Part shown: positions 52,351-57,573 of the stretch, piece by piece
How the letters are laid out: each line of letters opens with the position of its first letter
How positions within the stretch are numbered: the stretch's first letter is position 1
Origin: Prevotella disiens JCM 6334 = ATCC 29426
GTDB taxonomy: Bacteria > Bacteroidota > Bacteroidia > Bacteroidales > Bacteroidaceae
Reading direction: 5' to 3'
Length of the DNA: 64,000 bases
Assembly (NCBI RefSeq): GCF_000613345.1
Contig: NZ_BAIS01000006.1
Location: forward strand, 1-64,000
Made by a program: the position numbers and the translations under genes
Notes under the pieces: generated by a model
The model's input: the letters and a program-made list of their open reading frames with translations, nothing else
Told to the model about the DNA's origin: nothing
Databases searched by the model: none

Positions 52351-54522
52351 TTCACGATATTTAGGCAATGTCCACATATCATCGCTCACAATCAACTCAA
52401 GTTTATCAATCTCATAACGTATTTCTTCCATTTTTACAGCAATGTTGTCGTGATAAGCAATGGCTTTCTCTCGCTGATTTTCTATCTTATTGGCAATTTT
52501 TCGAGCCTCAATCAACTCGTCAACTCCCATTTCTATCGCTTGCATACGTTCGGCTATTTCTTTCACAATCTTTACATTGCGTGCTGTAAGTTTCTTGGCT
52601 TCTTCTTGTCCGAATATCTTTATCATCGAATTAATGTTCTTTGCCAACCTACTTTGATAATGTGTTACAACGGGAATGATATGGTTCATCGCCAAATCAC
52701 CCATAACTCTTGCTTCAATTTGGATTTTCTTTGTGTAGGTTTCCCACTTCACTTCGTTGCGTGCTTCTAACTCTTTGCGGTGCATTACATTCATGTTTTC
52801 GAACATTTTTACAGAGTCTTCACGCAGATAAGCATCGAAACAAATAGGGCAGACTGCCTCGCAATCAAGCCCACGCTTAGCGGCTTCTTGCTTCCATTCG
52901 TCGCTGTAGCCATTGCCATCAAAGTGTATTGGCTTTGAAATCTTAATGTCTTCACGCAAAATTTCTATCAATGCATTGTCTAATGGAGTTCCTTTCGCTG
53001 TCAAAGAATCTACCCTTTGTTTGAAATTTGTGAGTGCTTCAGCCACCGCAGTGTTAAGAACGATAAGTGCAGATGCACAGTTTGCTTCTGAACCAACGGC
53101 ACGAAATTCAAATCTATTGCCTGTAAATGCAAATGGAGAGGTTCTGTTTCTATCCGTATTATCAATGAAAAGTTCTGGAATTTCAGTAATATCCAGCTCC
53201 ACACCTTGCTTGTCTTTTATCGTGAAAATATCTTTTAAATCAGCCTTTTCAATGTGTTCTAAGATGTTAGATAATTGCTTTCCCAAGAACGAAGATATGA
53301 TTGCGGGTGGTGCTTCGTTCGCTCCTAAGCGATGATCGTTCGTCGCACTCATTACAGAAGCCTTTAAAAGTGCGTTGTGTTTGTAAACTCCCATTAAAGT
53401 TTCCACCACGAAAACAATGAATCGAAGATTATCTTTTGCGGTCTTTCCACTCTTGTGTAGCAATACGCCAGTATCTGTTGCGAGGCTCCAATTATTGTGT
53501 TTGCCCGAGCCATTGATACCTGCAAAAGGCTTTTCATGTAGCAAAACGCGGAATCCATGCCGTGATGCTACCCTCTTCATCAGTGCCATTAATACCATGT
53601 TATGGTCTACTGCCAAGTTGCATTCCTCAAAGATTGGAGCCAATTCGAATTGTCCTGGTGCTACTTCATTGTGGCGAGTTTTGACAGGAATGCCGAGTTC
53701 TAAAGCATGAATCTCTAAGTCTTTCATGAACGTTTGTACTCTTTCGGGGATTGTTCCGAAGTAGTGGTCGTCCATTTGTTGGTTCTTTGCAGAGTCGTGT
53801 CCCATTAAAGTACGCCCTGTAAGCATGAGGTCTGGTCGTGCAAAGAAAAGGTCTTGGTCAACAAGGAAATACTCTTGCTCCCAACCTAAGTTGGTATGAA
53901 CCTTTTTAACATCAGGATAAAAGTATTGACACACCTCCTTTGCAGCATTATTTACGGCTCTAAGCGAGCGCAAAAGCGGTGCTTTGTAGTCGAGCGCCTC
54001 CCCAGTATATGAAATAAAAATGGTTGGAATACAAAGCGTATCGTCTATAATGAACACTGGACTTGTTGGGTCCCATGCTGAATAGCCTCGCGCTTCGAAT
54101 GTATTACGGATACCTCCTGAGGGAAAAGAACTTGCGTCAGGTTCTTGTTGTGCCAATAATTTTCCAGAAAACTCCTCCATCATGCCGCCTTTCCCATTCG
54201 GTTCGATAAAGGCATCGTGCTTTTCAGCTGTTCCTTCCGTTAGTGGCTGAAACCAATGGGTATAGTGTGTAACACCATTTTCCATTGCCCATTGCTTCAT
54301 TCCTTTCGCAACTTCGTCGGCAATAGAGCGGTCTAAGCGTTCGCCACCGTCCATTACTTCCATCATCTTTTCATAAACATTCGACGGAAGATATTTGTAC
54401 ATTTTCTCACGGTTAAAGACTAACCTTCCAAAAAGTTCAGATGGTCGCACGTTAGCAGGGGTAATTTCTACAGGACGTTTTCTGAAAGCATCTTTTACAA
54501 CTTCAAATCTTAAGTTATCCAT
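52333..54522 (-). CDS. Glutamine synthetase type III
   Basis: 729 residues from the ATG at 54522 (MDNLRFEVVKDAFRKRP), the usual GSIII length; an in-frame start at 54561 overlaps the promoter and is rejected. GSIII signatures include NVRPSELFGRLVF, THYTHWFQPLTEGTAEKHD, NLGWEQEYFLVD and KTRHNEVAPGQFELAP, and GINGSGKHNNWSL. It forms glutamine from glutamate, ammonia and ATP, the main ammonium-assimilation route in Bacteroidetes. The gene is commonly called glnN or glnA. Its 3' end is duplicated in tandem downstream. Confidence 0.95.
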   Translation of the reverse strand: MDNLRFEVVKDAFRKRPVEITPANVRPSELFGRLVFNREKMYKYLPSNVYEKMMEVMDGGERLDRSIADEVAKGMKQWAMENGVTHYTHWFQPLTEGTAEKHDAFIEPNGKGGMMEEFSGKLLAQQEPDASSFPSGGIRNTFEARGYSAWDPTSPVFIIDDTLCIPTIFISYTGEALDYKAPLLRSLRAVNNAAKEVCQYFYPDVKKVHTNLGWEQEYFLVDQDLFFARPDLMLTGRTLMGHDSAKNQQMDDHYFGTIPERVQTFMKDLEIHALELGIPVKTRHNEVAPGQFELAPIFEECNLAVDHNMVLMALMKRVASRHGFRVLLHEKPFAGINGSGKHNNWSLATDTGVLLHKSGKTAKDNLRFIVFVVETLMGVYKHNALLKASVMSATNDHRLGANEAPPAIISSFLGKQLSNILEHIEKADLKDIFTIKDKQGVELDITEIPELFIDNTDRNRTSPFAFTGNRFEFRAVGSEANCASALIVLNTAVAEALTNFKQRVDSLTAKGTPLDNALIEILREDIKISKPIHFDGNGYSDEWKQEAAKRGLDCEAVCPICFDAYLREDSVKMFENMNVMHRKELEARNEVKWETYTKKIQIEARVMGDLAMNHIIPVVTHYQSRLAKNINSMIKIFGQEEAKKLTARNVKIVKEIAERMQAIEMGVDELIEARKIANKIENQREKAIAYHDNIAVKMEEIRYEIDKLELIVSDDMWTLPKYRELLFIR

Positions 54523-54566: not shown

Positions 54567-54739
54567 ACTTTTTGATAACAAAATATTGTGTTTTTATTGG
54601 TTTTTAATATTTTATTTTTTAAAATATTTGACATAAGTCATTTCTGTGAAGTATTTGTAAATAATTTGCTAAGTGATTAATTTTATATTTTTCTTTATTC
54701 ATTAATGACTGCTTTGCTTTAATTTTTGCAATAAAAAAG

Positions 54740-54769
54740 AGCCTATGTTTGCTCACGCAGACATAGGCT
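54740..54769 (-). terminator. Terminator of the candidate small RNA
   Basis: Minus strand AGCCTATGTCTGC / GCAAACATAGGCT (one mismatch/wobble) with GTGA loop, then TCTTTTTTATT. Confidence 0.8.
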
Positions 54770-54917
54770 TTGCCACTTAACTAAATAACTCAAAAAATTA
54801 CTTGACTCAATTCTCATTAGTAAATCTTCATCACGAGGAACTACCAATTACATTTGTTTGACTATTAACTTACTAATAACTATTTTGTCTTGTTTGTAAT
54901 CAAAACTTTTCGAATTG
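54740..54917 (-). ncRNA. Candidate small RNA (about 180 nt) with own promoter and terminator
   Basis: No protein-coding frame is convincing here. The transcript would start about 7 bases after a TACCTTTG -7 box (54924-54931) with TTTG at 54951-54954, and end at a 13-bp hairpin followed by TCTTTTTTATT. Inside, ATTAGTAA and TTACTAAT (54870-54877 and 54816-54823) can form an 8-bp stem and a 5' hairpin AATCAA / TTGATT is possible. This could be a 6S-like or other regulatory RNA; a short leader peptide is the alternative. The rest of the 54567-55154 gap shows nothing else. Confidence 0.5.
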
Positions 54918-54923
54918 ATTTTA

Positions 54924-54954
54924 CAAAGGTATGGATAAAAATGTAGAATACAAA
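54924..54954 (-). promoter_or_regulatory. Promoter of the candidate small RNA
   Basis: Minus strand -33 TTTG (54951-54954), 19-base spacer, -7 TACCTTTG (54924-54931). Confidence 0.7.
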
Positions 54955-55154: not shown

Positions 55155-57319
55155 TTATTGTTTCGCCTTATTGATGTCTATCAATACCAGTTTTATTTCC
55201 TCGTAGGTGTAATCGCTTGGGCATAAGTCTTTGATTGCTTTTAATCCACTTTCGCTCCCAACTCCTTTTGCAATACGTTTGATGCGGTCTATTTTCTTTT
55301 CATCAACCAATTCTGTGATGCTTAAATCTCCACTTTTTACATATTTAGATAGATGACCATTAATGGTGCTGATAGCAAGTTTTCGTTCTTGTGCAATTTG
55401 TTCTACGCTTTTTCCGCTTCTGAATAAAGTGTATGAAACAACATGAGTTGGTATTTTTTCTTCCTTTATGGGCTTTTCTTTTTTTCTCTTTTTCCGTTTA
55501 GTTTCTATGTTTCCATCGCCTATTGCTATCAATGTTGCTTCTTGTTTGCTTCTTAAATAGGCTTGTGTCGTAAAGGTTTCGTCCATCATGTCTTCTAATA
55601 GTAAGCGTTTGGCAATGTAAGTTTGTTTTGTTTCTGCAATGTTTTCTTGCAATTTTTGCATACCCATTTGGTTGTTTCCCTCCACTTCCTTTGCTTTTTC
55701 CAATTGCATTGACACCAATTCTGTTAGGTTGCTATGGAAATAACGGGCGCCATTTTTCACTCTTTCCAAGAACTTCTCATCGTGCAAAGCACTTGCAGGC
55801 ATGTTCTTTACAAGGGTTTCCCATTTCTCAGAAACTGCTATTATTTGTTTTTTCATGTCGTCCATTGTGGTTCGATGTAACGCAATGGTCTTTTGATACT
55901 TGTGGAAATATTCAACTAAGGTTCTGAATGTAGCTGACACGTTGTTGAAAATATCTGCAAAATTAAACATTTCTAAAAGCAAAAATCTGAAATATTCTTC
56001 TTTCAAAGCAGGTAAATTCTCAATACTTTGCCGTGCATTTACGTTTTGTTGTTCAATATATTGATTCACACGTTGGTCGTTGATGACTGCATTTTGGTTT
56101 AGAGTTGTTGCCAATACCAACCTTCCAATGTGCGGCAACGGCTCAATGCCACATACGTTTGTCCTGATGCAAAAGCCAATTGTGCATCAATGATAGCGTG
56201 TTCGAAGGTTAATCCTTGACTTTTATGAATGGTTATTGCCCACGCTAAGCGCAAAGGATATTGCCGAAATGCACCAACAACCTCATCTTCAATCTGTTTT
56301 GTCTTCTCGTTGAGCGTGTATTTCGTGTTTTCCCAAACGTTCTGTTCCACCTCAATAGCTTCAGTTTCGTTTGGACAAAGCACTAATATTTGGTTTTCAT
56401 CAATATAGGTTATGCGCCCAATCTTACCATTATAATATCGTCCGTGACTATCGTTGTGAATGAACATCACCTGTGCGCCCACTTTTAGCGTTAGCTTATA
56501 GTCGGCAGGATAGTTTGTTTCGGGAAATATCCCTTGCGTTTCAGCTGTGAATGTATAGGCTTTATTTTTTATTTGTGCTAATTTTTGGTTGTTATAGTTG
56601 TCAGCTATTCTGTTGTGCGTGGTGAGTTTGATGTAGTTACTGTTCTCATCTTCTTTAAAATTAGGAAGATAGCGTGAGTTTAATAGCTTGAAATCCTCAT
56701 TCGTAACCTTTCCTTCTCTGAAATGATTGAGAATATCTATGAACTTTTGGTCTTGCTGTCGGAACACTTTTGTGAGTTCTATGGTAACGTACTGTATGCG
56801 CTGTAAAGCCCTTGAACCAAAGAAATAAGGTGTTTCATAGTATTTTTTTAGCAATTCTTCCTCGTCTGCTGTAACCACAGGCGTAAGCTGTTGCAAGTCG
56901 CCAATCATTAAAAGTTGCACGCCTCCAAATGGTTTGTTGTGTTCACGAAATCGTCTTAACACAGAATCTATGGCATCGAGAATATCGGCACGCACCATAC
57001 TGATTTCGTCAATGATGAGAAGGTCGAGTGTGCGAAATATTTTGCGCTTCTCTTTACCGTAATCAAATTTAGATTTTACTCTACTTTCGGGTATGAAAGG
57101 CGATAGTGGGAGTTGGAAAAACGAATGAATCGTAACACCGCCTGCATTGATAGCCGCTACGCCCGTAGGTGCTACCACAACAATACGCTTTGTGCTATGC
57201 TCCTTAACTGCTTTAAGAAATGTGGTTTTACCTGTTCCAGCCTTTCCCGTAAGGAAGATACTGATACCAGTATGTTCCACAAAATCCCATGCGTTTCTGA
57301 GTTCTTCGTTCTTTTCCAT
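55155..57319 (-). pseudogene. PIF1/RecD-like helicase with C-terminal helix-turn-helix region, 1-base deletion (probable sequence error)
   Basis: From the ATG at 57319 (MEKNEELRNAWDFVEHTG) the frame holds a superfamily 1 helicase: Walker A LTGKAGTGKTTFLK, Walker B LLIIDEISMV, GDLQQLTPVV, and the C-terminal ITIHKSQGLTFEHAIID and YVALSRCRTLEG. A missing T at 56119-56120 (minus-strand GGTTGG; GGTTTGG gives EGLVLATTLN) then joins it to a 325-residue tail, giving about 721 residues. The tail has coiled-coil segments, a KRKKRKKEKPIKEEK linker and a helix-turn-helix region (SGKSVEQIAQERKLAISTINGHLSKY). Likely a 5'-3' DNA helicase in replication or recombination. The usual helicase-HTH fusion in Bacteroidales fits a single intact gene. 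Confidence 0.85.
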
Positions 57320-57343
57320 GATTGTTCTTTTATGATTTCCGAA

Positions 57344-57375
57344 CAAATTTAGTAAAAAATAGTGAGTTGGACAAA
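57344..57375 (-). promoter_or_regulatory. Promoter of the helicase gene
   Basis: Minus strand -33 TTTG (57372-57375), 20-base spacer, -7 TAAATTTG (57344-57351), 25 bases before the ATG. The left arm of an inverted repeat begins at 57376, directly next to the -33 box. Confidence 0.75.
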
Positions 57376-57573
57376 TATGGTGGGTTCTAAAAATTAGCTT
57401 TGTTTTAATTTGCTTTTCCTTTTGTGAGCAAATTGTCAATGAGTAAGGGCGCATAGCGAGCTATGCAACTGCACGAATTGGCGATTTGAACCAAAAATAA
57501 ACCAAAGAAAAACAAAACGAAATCCATATCCTAAGTATATTTCTTGCGGTGGTAATTTTTAGAATCTACCATA
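57376..57573. mobile_element. MITE-like inverted-repeat element (about 200 bp)
   Basis: Terminal arms of 23 bases match in inverted orientation at 20 positions: 57376-57398 (TATGGTGGGTTCTAAAAATT...) and 57551-57573 read on the other strand (TATGGTAGATTCTAAAAATT...). Near the centre GCATAGC / GCTATGC (57451-57466) forms a perfect hairpin. No transposase frame is inside. A third arm copy lies at 58134-58155. No clear target-site duplication could be assigned. Confidence 0.5.

Follow-up and report, generated by a model that had tools for sequence, protein, structure and literature searches.

The window analysed here is a stretch of 64,000 nucleotides of Prevotella disiens DNA. Two genes in it border the region of interest. 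The ORF of a helicase-like protein, assigned to the PIF1 family by a Pfam-type family scan, has its stop at 55155, and the ATG of glnN, coding for a type III glutamine synthetase (family GSIII), is located at 54522. Recovery of these two families agrees with the initial annotation, which had placed a candidate RNA between glutamine synthetase and helicase genes. The predicted RNA gene is read from the same strand as glnN, and its parts are as follows:

54924..54954, minus strand: promoter of Bacteroidota type, with TTTG at 54954-54951, a 19-nt spacer and TACCTTTG at 54931-54924
54733..54918, minus strand: putative small RNA gene of about 185 nt, its 5' end deduced from the promoter and its 3' end from the terminator
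54857..54881, minus strand: block A, AGTTATTAGTAAGTTAATAGTCAAA, a strongly conserved weak hairpin with the proposed seed ATTAGTAAGTT
54816..54849, minus strand: hairpin B, with variable stem, apical region of CTCGTGA type and compensatory changes
54790..54805, minus strand: hairpin C, TCAAGTAATTTTTTGA, with 98.8% of cells paired and no two-sided changes
54772..54789, minus strand: block or hairpin D, GTTATTTAGTTAAGTGGC, its first 14 nt exact in 18/18 copies found by the covariance model
54733..54769, minus strand: intrinsic terminator with a 13-pair stem, a GNGA loop and a T run

The promoter (TTTG-N19-TACCTTTG) and the strong terminator that had been reported to frame the RNA are thus both present on the minus strand, by sequence. 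The terminator hairpin AGCCTATGTCTGCGTGAGCAAACATAGGCT occupies 54769-54740 of this strand and is followed by C and six T (54739-54733); about 155 nt separate the promoter box from the terminator. Both signals are unlisted in a generic scan for sigma-70 hexamers and terminators, the latter with 0 found. The fold of the RNA has a z score of -4.87, and 0 of 200 dinucleotide shuffles were equally stable.

The helicase-like gene itself (55155-57454, minus strand) is composed of two overlapping ORFs in different frames, 55155-56138 and 56099-57454. A single frame runs through the corresponding stretch in one relative (L002). The split may be due to either a frameshift or an assembly error.

Distribution and fold of the RNA family

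Comparison of the RNA with 60 relatives by BLAST revealed copies in three other genomes of the same genus; three short matches (L005, L006 and L007) were read and rejected as copies. A covariance model made from four sequences was run with strict filters against 398 same-genus genomes and yielded 23 matches, 18 of which proved on inspection to be full-length, one per genome. The five weak ones (L027-L031) share only the terminator with the RNA and were dropped. When the model was rebuilt from the 18 copies and applied to 393 genomes sampled from the order, with strict filters that can lose weak matches, the window's own copy was the only one found. An exact-pattern scan of a genome contig collection, which required the first 14 nt of block D, gave 15 matches. 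Fourteen belong to named Prevotella species (vespertina, ihumii, corporis, denticola, aurantiaca, bivia, micans, veroralis, brunnea, multiformis, falsenii, jejuni, histicola and pallens), and the remaining one, in a Lactobacillaceae MAG (L036), has neither the promoter box nor any other block and was set aside as a chance match. A search of plasmid records for the RNA gave no match.

Model copies and pattern matches, with several species in both sets, come to 21 distinct Prevotella sequences. All 21 carry the promoter box, in the form TACCTTTG or TATCTTTG (TAYCTTTG), at the matching place. Counted over aligned rows, where some sequences are present twice, the box is found in 32 of 33, and the single miss is the chance match. 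An exact TTTG stands 18-20 nt 5' of the box in 8/21 loci. The length of the RNA, taken by one measuring rule at the 21 loci, ranges from 175 to 196 nt. The most diverged copy is that of P. bivia, which keeps most of block D and has a different block A.

The consensus fold, a row of local hairpins (A, B, C, D and the terminator) with 95.8% of cells paired, was derived from an alignment of 18 sequences, 16 of them distinct, and scored on that very alignment, which favours this fold. Two-sided changes are seen at 17 of the 43 pairs, compared with a shuffled mean of 7.2 (0/500 shuffles as high). The initial annotation had suggested an alignment of related genomes as a check for compensatory changes; these are present, and the sequence is conserved too. 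Support by covariation is found for 9 of 13 pairs of the terminator and for 7 of 10 pairs in the two stems of hairpin B (0/500 shuffles for B). As hairpins A, C and D hardly vary, their pairing is compatible with the alignment and weakly tested by it. An internal helix between ATTAGTAA and TTACTAAT, also claimed earlier, did not hold up: 65.3% of cells are paired against 64.7% in shuffles, with 182 of 500 shuffles as high, and we rejected it as a conserved element, although the fold of the single sequence uses it. The claim of a stand-alone small RNA is supported by promoter, terminator and conservation of both sequence and structure, and these features mark it as a member of a conserved, putative sRNA family of one Prevotella clade.

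Relation to known RNAs

No Rfam family reaches its gathering score with this RNA, and matches in the window region with E values up to 10 include nothing convincing. Searches of open-licence papers listed no report of this RNA in Prevotella. Its description as undescribed is in line with both results, and we file it as an intergenic regulatory RNA, which is a known kind, of a new family. In published work, 6S RNA, GibS, FopS and MasB are described from Bacteroides thetaiotaomicron (PMC7366714, PMC11697453, PMC10994844), ncRNAs are predicted from a periodontitis metatranscriptome (PMC7160235), and a regulatory sRNA, SrcF, is mentioned for Segatella copri (review PMC11814227). SrcF is likewise a regulatory sRNA of a Prevotella relative; the exact-pattern scan of the genome contig collection returned no Segatella record.

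GibS (RF04182) and FopS of Bacteroides are Bacteroidales sRNAs that act in trans, as is proposed here, and possess a canonical promoter, a seed and a terminator (PMC11697453). The Prevotella RNA differs from them in being longer, in having one match per genome and in its proposed target. With E values up to 10 admitted, GibS matches nothing in the window region, nor does it match the RNA in 15 relatives. MasB/BTnc201 (RF04177; PMC10994844) and BTnc231 (RF04180) are also sRNAs with a terminator, and the hairpin loop CGUGAG of BTnc231 is a point of likeness to the Prevotella RNA. BTnc201 matches one relative (L022) with 25.5 bits, where its threshold is 105; the E value is 2.3, or 0.011 when 231 bases are searched; this match is mostly terminator and the window region has no such match, so identity with BTnc201 was rejected. 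Bacteroidales-1 RNA (RF01693) is a structured ncRNA of the same genome, but it occupies a separate locus (G000:C186:62429-62615, L008; 118.6 bits) and has no match at the sRNA locus.

A predicted target in the leader of an OmpA-family gene

The most constant parts of the RNA include two blocks. Block A, AGTTATTAGTAAGTTAATAGTCA, has a core, ATTAGTAAGTT, that is exact in 16 of the 19 loci checked and differs in multiformis, bivia and denticola. Block D, GAGTTATTTAGTTAAGTGGC, begins with A in multiformis and denticola and is altered in its 3' part in bivia. The cost of opening the seed is 1.8-5.5 kcal/mol. Of the 11 genomes tested, 10 have a value below the median 11-mer of the RNA, and G361 exceeds that median by 0.1.

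When 15 genomes were scanned for sequences complementary to block A, with at most 3 mismatches allowed, a lead emerged in the leader of an outer-membrane-type protein (in G017). The protein is about 386 aa long, and in the window's genome (G000) it contains an OmpA domain (PF00691, E 7.1e-12, Pfam). At a cut-off of E<=1e-40, 13 of 16 genomes have an orthologue, and G003, G026 and G010 have none. Nine of these 13 (G000, G108, G017, G335, G361, G408, G099, G187 and G342) have a site in the leader, AACTTACTAATTAC in eight of them and TTAACTTACTATAG in the window's genome. Each of the nine sites can form 11-12 contiguous Watson-Crick pairs with block A and ends 37-47 nt before the ATG, as an island of identity within an otherwise variable leader.

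The exact 14-mer AACTTACTAATWAC, looked for in 15 genomes with the sRNA genes left aside, is found in the OmpA-family leader of eight and in one other place, on the antisense strand of a coding region of G361. In the nine genomes, the energy of the duplex between block A and the leader is equalled by 2-43 of 1000 dinucleotide shuffles; the leaders of G148, G403, G334 and G170 lack the site, and 181-698 of 1000 shuffles are as good there. Among gene starts, defined as the first ATG of ORFs of at least 120 aa without curation, the OmpA leader ranks first of 44 in the window's genome (-19.1 kcal/mol versus -10.6 for the next) and second of the 276 contained in 400 kb sampled from G187, where one other gene start scores better. 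Near matches (at most 1 mismatch), after removal of 15 sRNA genes and 8 OmpA leaders, number 39, as compared with 49 in a reversed-pattern control; being no more frequent than in the control, they reveal no wider regulon.

Further candidates from the same searches were discarded. A lipoprotein leader of G099 has 12 bp to block A, and another lipoprotein leader, of G408, has 18 bp including G-U; among the orthologues read, 12 loci for the first and 11 for the second, neither site is kept. Two of those 12 loci, in G403 and G010, contain different stretches that can form 13 and 15 pairs with A or D, G-U included. Most of the other near-complements of block A that were read lie within coding regions or are single cases.

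Two side observations concern the blocks. Some copies in the alignment (L009-L026) bear a 10-nt insertion, AATTACGTTT, 5' of block A. Four of the 13 genomes that have an OmpA orthologue carry this insertion, and they are the four whose leader has no site; the nine without it have the site. In G187, the leader of a gene resembling dps (L189:12493-12966, minus strand) is the second-best partner of block D among 275 gene starts sampled, at -16.3 kcal/mol.

As the carrier genomes are related and the lead came from searching 15 genomes, the evidence for the target is good, not decisive. From it we infer that block A is a seed pairing with the 5' UTR of the OmpA-family gene, the predicted target of the RNA. 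We propose, with a probability of roughly 0.6, a stand-alone trans-acting sRNA that tunes the synthesis of the OmpA-family protein through this seed. The RNA would be made from its own promoter and end at its own terminator. Block A, presented by a weak A-U hairpin whose loop is UAAG, would open and form 11 to 12 contiguous base pairs with the OmpA-family leader, about 40 nt upstream of the start codon. The effect would most likely be repression (about 60:40 over activation), since the FopS sRNAs of Bacteroides repress outer-membrane SusC mRNAs by pairing near the start codon and blocking translation (PMC11697453). Block D, beside the terminator, may serve as a second seed or as a site for an RNA-binding protein. 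MicA and RybB are enterobacterial, Hfq-dependent sRNAs of outer-membrane proteins. The proposed action is analogous, as it also involves pairing with the 5' region of an ompA-type mRNA, although the candidate site in Prevotella lies 37-47 nt upstream of the start codon; the likeness is one of proposed action.

Alternative readings and implications

We consider it rather unlikely that the RNA is a real sRNA with a main partner other than the OmpA-family mRNA, acting by protein binding or on other targets, with the 14-mer in the leader as a coincidence or a DNA site. Such a reading would fit several properties of the two blocks. The complement of block D (at most 1 mismatch, 16 genomes) occurs only in the sRNA gene itself (16/16), so that the conservation of this block is left unexplained by a complementary target. 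Blocks A and D are alike, 49 of 5000 shuffles being equally similar, and an RRM-type RNA-binding protein could be a partner via the repeated AGTTATT..AGT.AAG motif. Block A, too, is kept where the OmpA leader has no site: the seed is exact in three of the four site-less genomes and has one change in G148, and together with the three genomes that have no orthologue this means that something else must keep block A there. What speaks for the OmpA-family mRNA, on the other hand, is that the site, positioned in the 5' UTR, corresponds to the seed in reverse complement and is identical in eight genomes, and that the variant site of the ninth still pairs over 11 bp.

Two of the site-less genomes, G334 and G170, which are melaninogenica-type by a label inferred from named relatives, contain an apparent second sRNA gene (at about 1359-1546 of L112 and at the corresponding position of L116). 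Its two copies are nearly identical and have a TAACTTTG promoter box and a terminator; the fold z score of L112 is -3.0. Directly 5' of the terminator lies AACATACTAATAAC, a near-complement of block A. L116 gives a full-model match to GibS with 35.7 bits against a threshold of 115 (E 0.032 or 0.0011), and L112 gives none at E<=0.1. The model of the present RNA scores 23.4 bits on L116 and 19.6 on L112, with a chance match in the same loci at 19.5. Where the OmpA site is absent, this second RNA might act as a partner to the one described here. An extension of this idea, in which seeds A and D would belong to an RNA-RNA circuit, with A repressing the OmpA-family protein in one subclade and a GibS-like sRNA engaging A in its sister, is speculative and in our view improbable; if true, a sponge or an sRNA-sRNA pair would stand in place of an mRNA target.

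Genomic neighbourhood bears on a different possibility, that of a cis-acting 5' leader or attenuator of glnN. In 15 of 21 loci the next gene downstream is indeed glnN, identified from the N-terminal sequence and lying on the same strand. The RNA has no constant position relative to it, as the gap varies from 98 to 758 nt, and in the other six loci a different gene follows, on the opposite strand in three of them. In falsenii this gene codes for a fumarase/aspartase-type lyase, in G108 for a chromate transporter, in corporis for an AhpC/TSA peroxiredoxin and in brunnea for a similar protein; it has no Pfam match in G099 and is unnamed in micans. On the upstream side, most of the loci that were read have a helicase-like gene, while some have one for an AraC-type regulator (family scan for L012). 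The RNA gene is conserved whichever gene lies downstream. Since glnN is missing from this place in 6/21 loci, we take the RNA to be no glnN leader, a role which appears very unlikely, and a nitrogen-related function, which the initial annotation had suggested from position, loses its support for the same reason.

A short mRNA for a small protein is hardly credible. A frame across block D and the terminator does read FLSYLVKW..(C)LRE in most loci, and in 4/21, the window included, an ATG-started version forms an ORF of 22-26 aa (MRIESSNFLSYLVKWQ...); the other 17 have no ATG in that frame, and in veroralis, multiformis, denticola, brunnea and bivia it is interrupted or immediately preceded by stops or frame changes. 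The common letters reflect a DNA block that is invariant even at third codon positions, and changes in the terminator track base pairing. No frame is conserved with a start codon among the 21 loci, as the earlier claim of no convincing coding frame would have it. Equally remote is a 6S-type RNA binding RNA polymerase, the other suggestion made at the outset, to which the length of about 185 nt and the position between unrelated genes might point: 6S RNA has the shape of a long rod with a central bubble, whereas the conserved fold here is one of local hairpins, a search of the window region with E values up to 10 brought up no 6S family, and the strictly filtered search of 393 genomes sampled from the order gave no copy besides the window's own. 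A 6S-Flavo search of the whole genome was empty, as were its controls.

The trans-acting sRNA with a predicted OmpA-family target thus remains our preferred reading. It joins a promoter, a terminator, a supported fold, 14 named carriers and one predicted target in a single family, and post-transcriptional control of the cell surface in these Prevotella would thereby be open to direct test.
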